Part shown: piece by piece, positions 44,232 through 51,169 of the stretch
Layout: every line of letters begins with the position of its first letter
Position numbering within the stretch: the stretch's first letter is position 1
Source of the DNA: Pseudomonas sp. FP1742
Lineage (GTDB): Bacteria > Pseudomonadota > Gammaproteobacteria > Pseudomonadales > Pseudomonadaceae
Assembly (NCBI RefSeq): GCF_030687145.1
Contig: NZ_CP117460.1
Location: 3,844,001-3,908,000, forward strand
Length of the DNA stretch: 64,000 nucleotides
Direction: 5' to 3'
Notes under the pieces: generated by a model
What the model saw: the letters and a program-made list of their open reading frames with translations, nothing else
Database searches by the model: none
What the model was told of the DNA's origin: nothing
Position numbers and translations under genes: made by a program

Positions 44232-45904
44232 TCAACCTGAAATCAGCTCATCGATATGTCGATAATCAACCTGTAACTGCGCTGCCAACACCTTTGCCCG
44301 CCCGAGCCGAATCGGCCCGCGCTCGATGTCGATCAACAACCCCGGACAATCCAGCGCCGGCAACGCCGACCATTCCTTCAACCGTCCATCCGTCACCAGC
44401 AACAGCCGCTGCTGTTCTGCAGGGAAACGCTTTTGCCGTACCGCCAACCAGCGCCCCGCTTCACTCAACGCCGCCAGCATCGGCGTTCCGCCACCGGCTC
44501 CGAGCCCCTCGAGCCAGTCGCGCAAGCCCGCAGAGGCTTTCAAGCCTTGCACCTGCCACTTCGGCAGGTGACCGCTGGCGGTCAACAACGCCAGGCGTGC
44601 ACGCTGGCGATAGGCATCGTCGAACAGTTGCGCCAGCAAGCCCTTGGCATCGCTCAACGCCTGATGGCGCCGGGTCGAGGCCGAGGCATCGACGATCACC
44701 AGCCACAGCTCGTGGGGGGTGCGGGTACGCAGATGGAACAATAGGTCATCGCGTTGACGCGGCTGACCATTGAGCAAGGTACCGGGCCAGTTGACCGAAC
44801 CGCTACGGGCGGCGTGGCGCTTGCCCTGTTTGCCGTGATCCAGCCGTCCTGCGCGGGGTCTGGCATTCGCCCCCGCGTCTGATCGAGGGCGAATGCCTAG
44901 GGCTTTTTTGGCCAGCTCGGCACTTCACGTCGAGCGCCGACCGGCAGCGCCTGGGCAGGCATTTCGCCCCACTGGCCCTGACCTTCGTTCGGGTTGGGGG
45001 TTGGCGCGGGGGATTGCTGTGGCGCTTGGGAGTGTTGCGGCGCAGAGGTCGAATGCTCGCGACGACGATGACGCAAGGCAAATTCGGCGACCGCGTCGAT
45101 ATCTTCTTCGCCAATGGCGTTCGCACCGCGCCAGGCCGCATGTGCCCGCGCCGCACGCAGCCAGACCAGGTCGGCCCGCAAGCCGTCGACGCCGGCAGCA
45201 AAGCAGCGCTCGGTGATCTGCGCCAGTGCGGCATCGTCGAGCGGGATACTCGCCAGGGCCGCACGCGCCTTCTGGCAACGCTCGCGCAGGGCGTGTTGCT
45301 GACTTTCCCACTCGGCGCAGAAGCCTTGCGGATCGCTGTCGAAATCCAGTCGACGACGGATGATCTGGCCGCGCTCGGCGGGTGCGGTATGGCCACTGAG
45401 GGCGACGTTCAGGCCAAAGCGGTCGAGCAGTTGCGGACGCAGTTCGCCCTCTTCCGGGTTCATGGTGCCGATCAGCACAAACTTCGCCGAATGCCGATGG
45501 GAAATCCCGTCGCGCTCGATCAGGTTGGTGCCGCTGGCGGCCACGTCGAGCAGCAGATCCACGAGGTGATCGGGCAGCAAGTTCACTTCATCGACGTAGA
45601 GCACGCCGCCGTCGGCCTTGGCCAATACACCCGGAGAAAACTGTGCGCGCCCTTCGCTCAAGGCCGCGTCGAGATCGAGGGTGCCGACCAGCCGTTCTTC
45701 GGTGGCGCCCAGGGGCAAGGTGACGAATTGACCACTGGCCAGCAGGTCCGCCAGGCCTCGGGCCAGGGTCGACTTGGCCATGCCGCGCGGGCCTTCGATC
45801 AGCACGCCACCGATTTTCGGGTCGATGGCGGTCAGGTACAGCGCGAGCTTCAAGTCATCGGCGCCGACCACGGCGGAGAGTGGGAAATGGGGGATGTCGG
45901 TCAT
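44232..45904 (-). CDS. chlD: Cobaltochelatase ChlD-type subunit made by -1 frameshift (full-length reading)
   Basis: Reading from ATG 45904 in the ChlI frame to the slip site at 44909-44903, shifting back one base, then to the stop at 44234-44232 gives a 557-residue ChlD-like protein: an AAA+ domain (about 1-270), a charged linker, and a von Willebrand A domain with MIDAS motif DASAS and GTPM. The vWA half has no ATG or GTG of its own: its frame opens only after a TGA at 44927-44925, and the first TTG (44777) has no ribosome-binding site and truncates conserved sequence. In cobalamin producers lacking separate small-subunit genes, ChlD frameshifting is described in the literature (Antonov 2020, from memory). 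With CobN it would insert cobalt. Confidence 0.82.
44862..44909 (-). other. Programmed -1 ribosomal frameshift signal
   Basis: On the minus strand: slippery heptamer A_AAA_AAG at 44909-44903, in register with zero-frame codons CCA AAA AAG CCC TAG; a 5-base spacer; then a perfect 11-bp stem GGCATTCGCCC (44897-44887) / GGGCGAATGCC (44872-44862). The zero-frame stop TAG lies 6 bases past the heptamer. All parts of a classical bacterial -1 signal are present. Confidence 0.85.
44897..45904 (-). CDS. chlI: Cobaltochelatase ChlI-type AAA+ subunit (zero-frame product)
   Basis: A 335-residue MoxR/ChlI-like AAA+ ATPase produced when no frameshift occurs. Walker A is GPRGMAKSTLARG near residue 40, Walker B GVLYVDEVNLLPDHLVDLL near 105, and sensor 1 LIGTMNPEEGELRPQLLDRFG near 155. 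A low-complexity Pro/Gln/Ser linker precedes the end REVPSWPKKP. The ATG at 45904 (MTDIPHF) is used; TTG two codons upstream is possible. Product assembles with the ChlD form and CobN to insert cobalt into hydrogenobyrinic acid diamide. It is 161 bases downstream of cobN on the same strand, with a REPIN between. Confidence 0.9.
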   Translation of the reverse strand: MTDIPHFPLSAVVGADDLKLALYLTAIDPKIGGVLIEGPRGMAKSTLARGLADLLASGQFVTLPLGATEERLVGTLDLDAALSEGRAQFSPGVLAKADGGVLYVDEVNLLPDHLVDLLLDVAASGTNLIERDGISHRHSAKFVLIGTMNPEEGELRPQLLDRFGLNVALSGHTAPAERGQIIRRRLDFDSDPQGFCAEWESQQHALRERCQKARAALASIPLDDAALAQITERCFAAGVDGLRADLVWLRAARAHAAWRGANAIGEEDIDAVAEFALRHRRREHSTSAPQHSQAPQQSPAPTPNPNEGQGQWGEMPAQALPVGARREVPSWPKKP

Positions 45905-45962
45905 GTTCAAATCTCAGTCATGGTCGGTGATTCTTCAGCAAATATCACAGGCACCTTCATCC

Positions 45963-46054
45963 CTGTGGGAGCGGGCTTGCTCGCGAAGAGGGAGTGTCAG
46001 TCAAGATTTATGTCGCCTGACACACGGCTTTCGCGAGCAAGCCCGCTCCCACAG
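45963..46054. repeat. REPIN
   Basis: Inverted REP pair between cobN and chlI, CTGTGGGAGCGGGCTTGCTC at the left and its inverse at the right. Confidence 0.92.
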
Positions 46055-46065
46055 GTTTAAGCGCA

Positions 46066-49000
46066 CTAGCTGTCTTCTTCGATGTCCAGCAACAAATTCT
46101 CCAGCGCCTCGCGATACTCACCCGGCTCCTGCCACATTCCCCGCTGCTGTGCTTCGAGCAGGCGTTCGGTCATGTCGCGCAAAGCGTGGGGATTGTGTTC
46201 GCGGACAAACTCCCGGGTCGCCGGATCGAGCAGATAGGCATCCGCCAGCAACGCATACTGGTGATCGTCGATCAACTGCGTGGTGGCGTCGAACGCAAAC
46301 AGGTTATCGACCGTCGCCGCCAGTTCGAACGCGCCTTTATAGCCGTGACGCTTGACCCCGTCGATCCATTTCGGATTGGCCGCCCGGGAACGGATCACCC
46401 GGTTCAGCTCTTCCTTCAAGGTGCGGATCTTCGGCAAATCCGGCTGACTGTGGTCGCCGTGGTAACTCGCTGCGGCTGCGCCGCTGAGGCTCTCGACGGC
46501 CGCCAGCATGCCGCCCTGGAACTGGTAATAGTCGTTGGAATCGAGCAAGTCATGCTCGCGGTTGTCCTGGTTTTGCAGCACTGCCTGCACCTGGCTCAGA
46601 CGCTGGGCGAATTGTTCACGGGCGGCGCTGCCTTCATCGGAGCCGCCGTAAGCGTAGCCGCCCCAGTTCAGGTAAACCTCGGCCAGGTCTTCGCGGCTCT
46701 GCCACAAACGACCGTCGATGGCGCCCTGCACGCCGGCACCGTAAGTACCCGGCTTGGCCCCGAAGATCCGCCAGCCGGCCTGCCGCCGGGCCGCGTCTTC
46801 ATCGAGACCGGACTCCAGCAGCGCTTCTCGCTCGGAGCGAACCTTGGCGGCCAGCGGGTTGAGATCGTCCGGCTCATCCAGCGCGGCGACCGCTTGCACG
46901 GCGGCGTCGAACAGCCGGATCAGGTTGGCAAAGGCATCGCGGAAGAATCCGGAGACGCGCAAGGTCACGTCCACCCGCGGCCGGTCCAGCAGGCTCAACG
47001 GCAGAATCTCGAAGTCGTCGACCCGCTGACTGCCCGTCGCCCACACCGGCCGCACGCCCATCAGCGCCATCGCCTGGGCAATGTCGTCGCCACCGGTGCG
47101 CATGGTCGCGGTGCCCCACACCGACAGGCCAAGCTGACGCAAGTGATCGCCGTGATCCTGCAAGTGCCGCTCAAGAATCAGGTTGGCGGATTGAAAGCCG
47201 ATGCGCCACGCCGTGGTGGTCGGCAGGTTGCGCACGTCCACGGAATAGAAATTGCGCCCGGTGGGCAACACGTCCAGCCGTCCGCGACTGGGTGCGCCGC
47301 TCGGCCCGGCCGGGACGAATCGACCGCTGAGGGCGTCCAGCAGGCCGCGCATTTCCGCCGGGCCGCAGGCGTCCAGGCGCGGAGCGACGACCTCGCGCAA
47401 ACTGTCGATGATCGCGCTCACGTCGGACCAGCCAGCCTTTTGTGGGAGCGGGCCTTTGTGGCGAGGGGGCTCGCCCCCGTTGGACTGCGCAGCAGTCCCA
47501 TTTTTTGGGGCCGCTTCGCGACCCAACGGGGGCAAGCCCCCTCGCCACAAGGGTTCGCTCCCACAGGGTTCAGGCTCGGCTTGAGGATGGTTCAGTTGCT
47601 CGACATCGGTATTCAAGGCTTGCTCGATCAACTGCGCGGCGAACAGTTCCAGACGCTCACGGGTATCCCCCGCCGTGCGCCACAGCTCATCACTGACCGC
47701 CTGCAAGGCATCCGGCCGAGGACCGTTCCAAGGATCAGCCAACACGCAATCCAGTGGATCGAAGCCCAATTCGAACGCCTTGGCCAGCGCCCGCAGCACA
47801 CTCGATTGCGCCCCACGCCCGTCACCACGGGGAATGCGCAGCAAGGCCAACAGGGTGTCGATGCGCAATCGCCCGACTGGCGACTCGCCAAACACATGCA
47901 GGCCATCGCGGATCTGCGACTCCTTCAAGTCGCACAGGTACGTATCCAGACGCGGCAACCAGATCGCCGCGTCGGCATCGCTGTCGAGCTTCTCGTCCAG
48001 TTGCAGTTCTCGGTCGATGTGCGTATCGCGCACCAGTTGCAGAATGTCGCGCTGCAGTTCCCGGGCGCGGCGCGGATCGAGCAACTGCGCTTCGTAATAT
48101 TCATCGGCCAACAACTCCAGGTTGCGCAATGGGCCATAGGTTTCGGCGCGGGTCAGCGGTGGCATCAGGTGATCGATGATCACCGCTTGCGTACGGCGCT
48201 TGGCCTGGGCGCCCTCGCCCGGGTCGTTGACGATGAACGGATAGATGTTCGGCAGCGGTCCGAGCAATGCATCCGGCCAGCAGTTTTCCGACAGCCCGAC
48301 ACCCTTGCCCGGCAGCCATTCGAGGTTGCCGTGCTTGCCGACGTGGATCACGCCGTGGGCGCCGTAGGTGTTGCGCAACCAGAAGTAGAACGCCAGATAA
48401 CCGTGGGGCGGCACCAGGTCCGGGTCGTGATAGACCGCGCTCGGGTCAACCTGATAACCCCGGGCCGGTTGAATGCCGACGAAGGTCAGGCCGAAGCGCA
48501 ACCCGGCAATCATCATTCGCCCGCCACGGAACATCGGATCGTTTTCAGGCGAGCCCCAACGTTGCAGCACCGCCTCGCGATTGGCTTCGGGCAGCGCGTT
48601 GAACATCAAAAAGTAATCGTCCAGCGCCAGGCTTTGGTGACACGGGCGTTGATCGAGAGTGTCCAGGTCATTGCTGACGCCACCGAGCAGTTGCTGGATC
48701 AGCGCGGTGCCACTGTCCGGCAACTCGGCCGGTAGCGGATAACCTTCGGCGTACAGGGCACGGAGGATATTCAGCGCGGCGGCCGGGGTGTCGAGACCGA
48801 CGCCATTGCCGATGCGCCCATCACGGGTCGGGTAGTTGGCGAGGATCAGGGCGATGCGTTTTTCGCCGTTGGGCACTCGCGCCAGATCAATCCAGCGCCG
48901 CGCCAGCTCAGCGACAAAATCCATGCGCTCGGGTTGCGGTCGATAACAAACCACATCGGACTGACTGCGCTCGCTGCGCCAGGCCAGGTCCTTGAAACTG

Positions 49001-49989
49001 ATCGGTCGGCTGATGATTCGCCCGTCCAGTTCCGGCAGAGCGATATGCATCGCCAGATCGCGAGGACCGAGGCCCTGCTCGCTTGCCAGCCAACCGGGTT
49101 CGTTGTCCTGGGCACAGATGGCCTGGATCACCGGGATGTTGCGACGAAACGGCCGCAGGTGCGGCGCTTCGGGGCTGGACTGGGCGAAACCGGTGGTGTT
49201 GAGAATCACCCCCGCCTCGACTTCATCCAGCAAGTCCTCGACCACCATCAGGCAGCCGGATTCTTTCAGACTGGCCACAGCAATCGGCAACGGGTTGAGC
49301 CCCGCCGCCTGCAAACGCTGGCAGAAAACATCGATGAAACCGGTGTTCGCCGCCTGCAAGTGCGAGCGGTAAAACAACACCGCCGCCACCGGTTGACCGG
49401 TTTGCCAATCGGCTTGCCAATCCTGAAGGTGCGCGGGGCTTTTTTGCGGGTGGTAGATCGCGGTGCGCGGCAGGGTTTGTGGCTCGGCCCAGGCGTAATC
49501 GCGACCCAGCCAGCGATTGGCCAGACAGCGGAAAAAATCCAGGGCATTGCCCATGCCGCCCTGGCGCAAAAACTGCCAGAGCCGGTCGCGGTCTTCGGGA
49601 AGCACCGTACTCAAGTCGCTGAGTTCCGGGTCCGGGCGATCATCGCCCGGTACCAGAATCAGCTGTACACCGCGCTGGGACAATTCCACCAGACGCTCGA
49701 TGCCATAACGCCAATAGGCGATGCCGCCGTGCAGCGAGATCAGAATCACCTTGGCGTGACGCAGCACCTCGTCGACATACAGATCGACCGAGGCGTGATT
49801 CTGCACCTGCATCGGGTTGGCCAGGCGCAGGCTCGGGTAATCGTCGGGCAACTGCTGCGCCGCTTCGGCGAGCAACGCCAGGCTGGAATCGCCGCTGCAC
49901 AGGATCACCAGCTCGGCGGGGGTTTGTCCAAGGTCGGCAATGTTGTCATCCGACACGAATCCGCCGGGCTGGGTCCTGAGCAGGTGCAT
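46066..49989 (-). CDS. cobN: Cobaltochelatase large subunit, with in-frame REP insertion
   Basis: A 1307-residue CobN, the tetrapyrrole-binding subunit of aerobic cobaltochelatase. Recognisable segments include HVGKHGNLEWLPGKGVGLS, FGESPVGRLRIDTL and the C-terminal MLAAVESLSGAAAASYHGDHS. It is about 50 residues longer than other pseudomonad CobN proteins as I remember them. Residues about 809-850 (47565-47441) are encoded by a REP-type palindrome and have REP-like composition (EPLWRGGLPPLGREAAPKNG), so the extra length is explained. The frame stays open across it. It follows cobW by 3 bases and is under the riboswitch at 51170-51355. Confidence 0.95.
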   Translation of the reverse strand: MHLLRTQPGGFVSDDNIADLGQTPAELVILCSGDSSLALLAEAAQQLPDDYPSLRLANPMQVQNHASVDLYVDEVLRHAKVILISLHGGIAYWRYGIERLVELSQRGVQLILVPGDDRPDPELSDLSTVLPEDRDRLWQFLRQGGMGNALDFFRCLANRWLGRDYAWAEPQTLPRTAIYHPQKSPAHLQDWQADWQTGQPVAAVLFYRSHLQAANTGFIDVFCQRLQAAGLNPLPIAVASLKESGCLMVVEDLLDEVEAGVILNTTGFAQSSPEAPHLRPFRRNIPVIQAICAQDNEPGWLASEQGLGPRDLAMHIALPELDGRIISRPISFKDLAWRSERSQSDVVCYRPQPERMDFVAELARRWIDLARVPNGEKRIALILANYPTRDGRIGNGVGLDTPAAALNILRALYAEGYPLPAELPDSGTALIQQLLGGVSNDLDTLDQRPCHQSLALDDYFLMFNALPEANREAVLQRWGSPENDPMFRGGRMMIAGLRFGLTFVGIQPARGYQVDPSAVYHDPDLVPPHGYLAFYFWLRNTYGAHGVIHVGKHGNLEWLPGKGVGLSENCWPDALLGPLPNIYPFIVNDPGEGAQAKRRTQAVIIDHLMPPLTRAETYGPLRNLELLADEYYEAQLLDPRRARELQRDILQLVRDTHIDRELQLDEKLDSDADAAIWLPRLDTYLCDLKESQIRDGLHVFGESPVGRLRIDTLLALLRIPRGDGRGAQSSVLRALAKAFELGFDPLDCVLADPWNGPRPDALQAVSDELWRTAGDTRERLELFAAQLIEQALNTDVEQLNHPQAEPEPCGSEPLWRGGLPPLGREAAPKNGTAAQSNGGEPPRHKGPLPQKAGWSDVSAIIDSLREVVAPRLDACGPAEMRGLLDALSGRFVPAGPSGAPSRGRLDVLPTGRNFYSVDVRNLPTTTAWRIGFQSANLILERHLQDHGDHLRQLGLSVWGTATMRTGGDDIAQAMALMGVRPVWATGSQRVDDFEILPLSLLDRPRVDVTLRVSGFFRDAFANLIRLFDAAVQAVAALDEPDDLNPLAAKVRSEREALLESGLDEDAARRQAGWRIFGAKPGTYGAGVQGAIDGRLWQSREDLAEVYLNWGGYAYGGSDEGSAAREQFAQRLSQVQAVLQNQDNREHDLLDSNDYYQFQGGMLAAVESLSGAAAASYHGDHSQPDLPKIRTLKEELNRVIRSRAANPKWIDGVKRHGYKGAFELAATVDNLFAFDATTQLIDDHQYALLADAYLLDPATREFVREHNPHALRDMTERLLEAQQRGMWQEPGEYREALENLLLDIEEDS
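47441..47565. repeat. REP element inside cobN
   Basis: Nested inverted repeat: outer arms TGTGGGAGCG (47441-47450) and CGCTCCCACA (47556-47565), inner arms of the second REP family, TTGTGGCGAGGGGGC and its inverse. It is translated in frame as part of CobN. Confidence 0.9.
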
Positions 49990-49992
49990 GGT

Positions 49993-51054
49993 TTAAACGC
50001 TGAGCGCAGCGCGCAATTGCGCTTCGAGCGCAGCGGCGTCCAGATCCTGACCGATCAACACCAGACGGGTGTTGCGCGCCTCTTCGGCGCCCCACTGGCG
50101 GTCGAAGTGTTTGTCGAACCGCGTGCCCACGCCCTGAATCAACAGGCGCATCGGTTTGTTCGGCACCGCCGCAAAACCTTTGACCCGCAGGATGCCGTGC
50201 TGAACCACCAATTGAGTCAGCGCATCCATCAGCAGGCTTTCGTCGGCTTGTGGCAGCTCAATGGAGATGGAATCGAATGCATCGTGGTCATGATCGTCTT
50301 CACCTTCATGGTGATGATCGTGATGACTGTGGCGGCTGTCGATGTGTTCTTCGGAACCGGCGCCGAGGCCAATCAGCACGTCCAGTGGCAGGCGACCGCT
50401 GCTGGCCTCGATGACTTTTACCGCCGGCGGCAGCTCTTCGGCGACTTCCAGGCGCACGCGGGCCAGGTCCGTGGCGCTGATCAGGTCAGCCTTGTTGAGG
50501 ATTACCAGGTCGGCGCTGGCCAGTTGGTCGGCGAACAGCTCGTGCAGCGGCGATTCGTGGTCCAGGTTCGGGTCGAGTTTGCGCTGGGCGTCCACTTGAT
50601 CCGGGAACGCGGCGAAAGTGCCGGCGGCCACGGCCGGGCTGTCGACCACGGTGATCACCGCGTCAACGGTGCAGGCACTGCGGATTTCCGGCCACTGGAA
50701 GGCTTGAACCAAAGGCTTTGGCAGGGCCAGGCCCGAGGTTTCGATGAGAATGTGGTCGAGGTCGCCGCGACGCGCGACGAGTTCGCGCATCACCGGGAAG
50801 AACTCTTCCTGAACGGTGCAGCACAGGCAGCCGTTGGCCAGTTCATAGACACGACCGCTGGCCTCTTCTTCGGTGCAGCCGATGGAGCACTGCTTGAGGA
50901 TCTCGCCATCGATGCCCAGCTCGCCGAACTCGTTGACGATCACCGCGATGCGACGGCCCTGGGCGTTGTCGAGCATGTGCCGCAGCAAGGTGGTTTTGCC
51001 CGAGCCGAGGAAGCCGGTAACGATGGTGACGGGGAGTTTGGCCAGTGTTTTCAT
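49993..51054 (-). CDS. cobW: CobW-type GTPase metallochaperone
   Basis: A 353-residue COG0523 GTPase. Walker A is GFLGSGKT near residue 15, the metal-binding CxCC is GCLCCTV near 76, the GTP-specificity segment is LNKADL, and a histidine-rich stretch (HSHHDHHHEGEDDHDHD) lies near 225. Start at 51054 (MKTLAKLPVTIV). Linked to cobN by a 3-base gap and preceded by a cobalamin riboswitch, it should supply cobalt to the CobN chelatase rather than handle zinc. Confidence 0.94.
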   Translation of the reverse strand: MKTLAKLPVTIVTGFLGSGKTTLLRHMLDNAQGRRIAVIVNEFGELGIDGEILKQCSIGCTEEEASGRVYELANGCLCCTVQEEFFPVMRELVARRGDLDHILIETSGLALPKPLVQAFQWPEIRSACTVDAVITVVDSPAVAAGTFAAFPDQVDAQRKLDPNLDHESPLHELFADQLASADLVILNKADLISATDLARVRLEVAEELPPAVKVIEASSGRLPLDVLIGLGAGSEEHIDSRHSHHDHHHEGEDDHDHDAFDSISIELPQADESLLMDALTQLVVQHGILRVKGFAAVPNKPMRLLIQGVGTRFDKHFDRQWGAEEARNTRLVLIGQDLDAAALEAQLRAALSV

Positions 51055-51169
51055 CGGATGCCCTTTGGCAAGGTGGCGGGCATACGGGACGACGACCGGC
51101 AACGCGGGGGCGCGTGCCTGAAGAGTTCGCCACCGGATCACCCCGCCCGGTTGAAAGTGAGAATCTGTG

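Follow-up and report, generated by a model that had tools for sequence, protein, structure and literature searches.

Chelatase genes of the frameshifted chlD type (fs-chlD) form a described family, reportedly the subject of a study that the 2022 paper discussed below cites as Antonov 2020. In such genes, a single fs-chlD yields both the small and the medium subunit of cobalt chelatase, with P. aeruginosa as the example of stage 8 (Kuznetsov 2022; PMC9227772). The available sections of Antonov 2013 (PMC3711429) list Pseudomonas in the frameshifted chelatase cluster, report that three cassettes shifted in E. coli, with efficiencies of 63, 40 and 10% for cassettes with 11, 9 and 7 A, respectively, and state that genes of this kind were annotated as two genes. 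In the portion of Atkins 2016 (PMC5009743) at hand, A_AAA_AAR is described as being under purifying selection, and regulation and divalent cations are raised as a possibility; archaeal cases are restated in the accessible part of PMC8211752. The original prediction for the locus analyzed here held that programmed chlD frameshifting is known elsewhere, which agrees with this literature, the family including Pseudomonas in the available text of PMC3711429 and PMC9227772.

We analyzed a 64,000-nt stretch of Pseudomonas sp. FP1742 DNA, hereafter the window, whose relevant features are listed in Table 1. The locus is very probably an fs-chlD gene of the aerobic cobaltochelatase, expressed by programmed -1 ribosomal frameshifting, as its sequence organization suggests. 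The proposal that one mRNA gives rise to both ChlI and ChlD through such a frameshift gains support from the register of the slip site, the downstream stem, conservation, codon-position bias, the fact that the vWA frame has no usable start, the neighbouring cobN and the absence of any other detected small-subunit gene.

Table 1. Features of the fs-chlD locus and its upstream neighbours in the window
Feature	Position	Strand	Remarks
cobW, upstream of cobN	49993..51141	-	TIGR02475, 536 bits (cut-off 332.1)
cobN, large cobaltochelatase subunit, 5' of chlI	46066..49989	-	TIGR02257, 1731.7 bits (cut-off 822.05)
ChlI-type AAA+ frame, 335 aa, ATG 45904 to TAG	44897..45904	-	Proposed small subunit (zero-frame product)
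TGA closing the -1 frame 5' of the slip site	44925..44927	-	Read 44927-44925
Slip heptamer A_AAA_AAG, zero-frame register	44903..44909	-	Read 44909-44903
-1 frame, linker and vWA domain, 223 aa and stop	44232..44903	-	Proposed medium-subunit part
Spacer CCCTA, 5 nt	44898..44902	-	Read 44902-44898
TAG, zero-frame stop	44897..44899	-	Read 44899-44897
Stem-loop	44862..44897	-	Arms 44897-44884 and 44875-44862, 8-nt loop

Anatomy of the locus and predicted mechanism

In the locus, a ChlI-type AAA+ frame precedes the vWA part of ChlD, which lies in the -1 frame, and an A-rich slip heptamer stands in register where ChlI ends. The ChlI frame terminates in the codons CCA AAA AAG CCC TAG, which bears out the exact zero-frame register predicted for A_AAA_AAG ahead of the stop; the gap between heptamer and stop had been put at six bases and is in fact three (CCC). 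The five-base spacer after the heptamer and the opening of the -1 frame directly behind an in-frame TGA were both found as described, and translation reproduced the anticipated product sizes of 335 residues for ChlI and 557 for ChlD, the latter a ChlD-type slip product of 334 + 223 residues ending at 44232. Pfam assigns AAA_5, AAA_lid_2 and Mg_chelatase to the zero frame and VWA_2 to the -1 frame, the vWA domain extending from about 44702. The two frames also match the two ends of the NCBIfam model TIGR02442 (putative cobaltochelatase subunit), the zero frame at model positions 88-338 (414 bits) and the -1 frame at 458-640 (64 bits), each taken alone scoring below the curated full-length cut-off; we count this match in favour of the fs-chlD reading.

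Ribosomes that keep their frame on this mRNA would terminate at the TAG and release the 335-residue AAA+ small subunit, and a fraction of them would slip back by one base on A_AAA_AAG, assisted by the stem-loop five bases downstream, and continue in the -1 frame to yield a 557-residue medium subunit (AAA+, linker and vWA). Both subunits would then work with CobN, encoded just upstream, and the frameshift would set the ChlI:ChlD subunit ratio, as the original prediction proposed. Anatomy, register, conservation, the constraint on the -1 frame and the absence of other detected ChlI or CobS were obtained here; slippage in Pseudomonas sp. FP1742, its frequency and the assembly of the subunits we infer. 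That the slip ratio is itself regulated, the strong stem, with its purine-rich and pyrimidine-rich arms, sensing a metal ion or a corrinoid so as to tune ChlI:ChlD, appears quite improbable.

AAAAAAG occurs 10 times in the window, counting both strands. A scan of frames of at least 150 codons for in-register X_XXY_YYZ heptamers lying no more than 15 nt from the stop and followed by a -1 extension of 60 codons or more returned two in the window, the chlI site with an extension of 223 codons and a CCCGGGC with one of 64. Suitably spaced perfect stems of 11 bp or more were found for 148 of 127,840 window positions, corresponding to 16 places on both strands.

Conservation of the slip site, the -1 frame and the stem

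The comparative analysis covered 172 loci, L008 being the window's own gene, in batches of 110, 30, 15 and 17. The vWA part lies at -1 in 148 of them (99, 28, 6 and 15 per batch, respectively), a class assigned by the frame of the vWA match and from which broken copies are hence excluded by construction. All 148 have an in-register heptamer rich in A where ChlI ends, a count that takes in A-rich variants and was checked for the 127 loci of the first two batches. These 127 loci reduce to 119 distinct 80-base stretches, and four pairs of loci (L020/L042, L023/L043, L051/L168 and L107/L185) are likely duplicate records, to judge from their coordinates or the length of the contig. The remaining 24 loci consist of 13 in-frame fusions, six loci without a vWA match, and L157, L165, L167, L172 and L180. 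In the batch of 110, L083, L099 and L100, all without a vWA match, are cut by contig ends, and L103, also without a match, has the heptamer and little sequence beyond it; L151 and L153, in the batch of 30, are likewise cut by contig ends. In the batch of 15, no vWA match was obtained for L157, ChlI is interrupted in L165, where the slip site is present, and L167 is a chance occurrence of the pattern without ChlI; L172 and L180 are the exceptions of the batch of 17. A stop codon directly follows the heptamer in L057, L174 and L183 and lies 21 nt after it in L173.

At the genome level, ChlI was detected at E <= 1e-60 in 280 of the 298 congeneric genomes sampled. An extended slip-site pattern was present in 251 of these 280, a figure that records presence anywhere in the genome, and in none of the 18 genomes without ChlI; its reversed control matched in 15 of the 298. 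A looser pattern, matching 262 of the 298 genomes, was discarded as useless because its reversed control matched about as often. Among the 29 ChlI genomes lacking the extended pattern, 18 were read, and 16 of them (15 from the batch of 17, plus L146) have an in-register heptamer and a vWA part in the -1 frame; a further one of the 29, G284 (L153), is truncated where its contig ends. The other two of the 18, G052 (L172) and G216 (L180), have five A and a vWA frame that a -1 slip cannot reach, possibly through a sequencing fault or damage to the gene. Together with G162 and G366, these isolated frame breaks are what could be cited for regarding the window's locus, too, as the result of a sequencing error or as a chlD gene that has decayed and split. 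The probability of such an artefact is vanishingly small, given that the same frame relation and heptamer recur in 148 loci from many assemblies, including other orders, and that the -1 frame is constrained at the codon level.

This constraint was measured between the slip site and the vWA domain in 46 loci of equal length differing by at most 25%, where substitutions at -1-frame codon positions 1, 2 and 3 number 119, 80 and 668, respectively. No stop interrupts the -1 frame between slip site and vWA in any of the 127 loci. Nearly all of this stretch lies 5' of TTG 44777, and the codon-position bias therefore favours translation through the junction. It bears directly on the possibility that chlI and the vWA protein are two separate genes, the second being started internally by coupled re-initiation, for example at TTG 44777 or TTG 44741. 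The former codon is indeed present, and a start-type codon occupies that place, four codons before the aligned vWA piece, in 68 of the 127 loci. However, neither ATG nor GTG occurs in the window's -1 frame ahead of the vWA domain, the two TTG codons are the only candidates, and neither is preceded, by eye, by a Shine-Dalgarno-like sequence, in line with the earlier claim that the vWA frame lacks a credible start; a vWA frame with a start and ribosome site of its own is thus not what the window holds. Seven of the 127 loci have no ATG, GTG or TTG at all from the upstream -1 stop to the vWA piece, and ATG occurs at any single place in at most 12 of the 127. The slip site, 5' of TTG 44777, is where constraint on the -1 frame sets in, and an internal start would leave the heptamer unexplained. 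Because ATG and GTG are absent, no start is conserved and constraint runs from the slip site, we reject internal initiation as very improbable, and the pattern that would have spoken against programmed frameshifting, loss of the heptamer next to an intact vWA frame with its own ATG, is absent from the loci read.

Polymerase slippage is known for A runs longer than six. Were RNA polymerase to slip on the A run, transcripts of differing length would arise and the fusion would be made by normal translation, and some relatives do have longer runs, such as the ten A of L159. The six A of the window are short for this, however, and most loci keep a heptamer of six A and G instead of a longer run; runs above seven are those named for polymerase slippage in the available text of PMC3711429. 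An in-register A_AAA_AAG followed by a stem 5 nt away is moreover a slip site of the ribosomal type, making transcriptional slippage an extremely improbable source of the fusion and leaving programmed -1 ribosomal frameshifting as the preferred reading.

The downstream stem was predicted as a perfect 11-bp helix. Those 11 pairs are present, but the full stem is longer, with 14 bp in the fold (the 11 perfect pairs, one G-U and two more), plus two outer pairs. Its energy of -29.3 kcal/mol compares with -16.59 (sd 2.53) for shuffled sequences (z -5.02), none of 200 shuffles equalling it, and the predicted stem would provide the downstream stimulatory structure of fs-chlD genes. In the window's wider group, represented by 42 of the 119 distinct sequences hand-picked by clade and geometry, 98.1% of 588 cells are paired, whereas sliding the partners leaves 52.6% at most. 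Double-sided changes amount to 14 cells (shuffle mean 4.5, 0 of 500 shuffles as high), spread over three pairs, a number equalled in 57 of 500 shuffles; one stem position is UA in 20 of the 42 sequences, UG in 10 and CG in 12. A second hand-picked set of 32 of the 119 sequences, drawn from other groups, chosen by the same features and comprising 31 Pseudomonas-type loci and L096 (labelled Pantoea), with L082 labelled Paucimonas, shares an 8-bp lower stem that is 97.3% paired and varies little, its pair count being equalled in 161 of 500 shuffles. Since the pair counts are matched this often by shuffles in both sets, support from covariation comes mainly from one pair. The stem is thus well kept, the evidence for covariation is moderate, and the slip site is conserved more than the stem, which agrees with the statement, in the accessible part of Atkins 2016 (PMC5009743), that conservation of the structure's sequence is not strong. 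Conservation of heptamer and stem in Pseudomonas had been named as a check on the prediction, and both the heptamer count and the two pairing values speak for it.

Chelatase neighbourhood and in-frame fused relatives

Both cobN and cobW are transcribed in the same direction as the chlI frame. A search of the one-contig genome detected no ChlI-type gene besides this one, the next match having 30% identity (E 3.6e-6), and no CobS was detected there either (best match E 8.1e-6); as a control, the CobS search returned matches in two of 14 genomes, those of Bacillus subtilis and Caulobacter vibrioides, with one of the two exceeding the cut-off. The genome thus combines cobN with no separately detected small-subunit gene. 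The interval between cobN and chlI (45960-46055 of the window) holds an inverted pair of TGTGGGAGCGGGCTTGCTCGCGA-like sequence, which we take to resemble the REP elements common in Pseudomonas. In the congeneric locus L124 (G176:C1:2217545-2222287), CobN and ChlI occupy one open frame of 1582 codons followed by the slip site; this gene could encode a CobN-ChlI-ChlD chain, and initiation may still occur at a GTG in the place of the old ChlI start.

Outside the genus, ChlI and the vWA part are fused in a single frame in 13 loci, seven from the batch of 110 and six from that of 15 (L105, L106, L108, L109, L112, L114, L115, L158 and L160-L164, with a further frame break in L161). No second ChlI-type gene was found in the 13 genomes, where other matches have E values of 8.4e-9 or worse, except in G338, where the match is a second piece of the same gene. 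CobS went undetected, with weak matches only (3.6e-9 or worse), in nine of the 13 (G299, G300, G301, G303, G582, G503, G366, G328 and G338), although completeness is not given for genomes reached via loci and some absences may be gaps. A CobS-like match of full length is present in the other four (G298, G302, G304 and G361), exceeding the curated cut-off in G361 only. CobN, present also in the nine genomes with no CobS detected, was matched in every one of the 20 genomes searched, and 18 of these exceed the cut-off; the two below it are G304, a fused genome, and G335. In Caballeronia/Paraburkholderia (L110, L111, L113 and L116), a frameshift gene (A_AAA_AAA) adjoins cobN, and all four genomes also have a full-length CobS-like gene scoring below the cut-off.

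Simple word searches for motifs found Walker A in 13, Walker B in 11, L.DRF in 11 and D.S.S in 12 of the 13 fused loci; among 133 frameshift loci, Walker A was found in 130 and each of the other three in all. For the inverse signal, a slip to an early stop that would give ChlI, the 13 fused linkers contain no heptamer common to them at a common place. With nine of 13 fused genomes showing neither a second ChlI nor CobS, the supply of a small subunit is not the whole explanation of the frameshift. In these relatives the fused protein may serve alone. Under the improbable reading of a regulated slip ratio, they would be in keeping with a ratio that can be tuned but is not essential.

Comparison with known systems

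What was found here belongs to a system already published, and published for this genus; the species adds one more member, and in that sense the finding was already known. The analysis verifies a clean recoding site within a metabolic gene, with about 300 congeneric genomes supplying new data on its conservation, and the fused relatives in which no small-subunit gene was detected raise the question of whether a separate small subunit is needed at all.

As far as the available text of PMC3711429 and PMC9227772 goes, the locus resembles the described fs-chlD genes in being one gene with an AAA+ frame followed by vWA at -1, in its A-rich slip site, in its downstream structure and in having CobN in the genome, and nothing of substance differs. 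The cassettes with measured efficiencies have longer A runs than the six A found here, judging by the sections of PMC3711429 at hand. Also close is the magnesium chelatase gene of P. protegens, whose stem CTAGGCAT..CGCCC...GGGCG.ATGCC stands, in the part of PMC5009743 available, at the same place after A_AAA_AAR, with few bases differing from the window's in stem and loop. A further parallel is E. coli dnaX, covered in part by the accessible text of PMC3711429: it too combines A_AAA_AAG with a downstream hairpin and encodes two subunits of one machine in one gene. In dnaX, however, the shift leads to the shorter product and an upstream Shine-Dalgarno-like sequence acts as stimulator, whereas at the chlI site no such sequence is evident by eye and the chlD shift would lead to the longer product.
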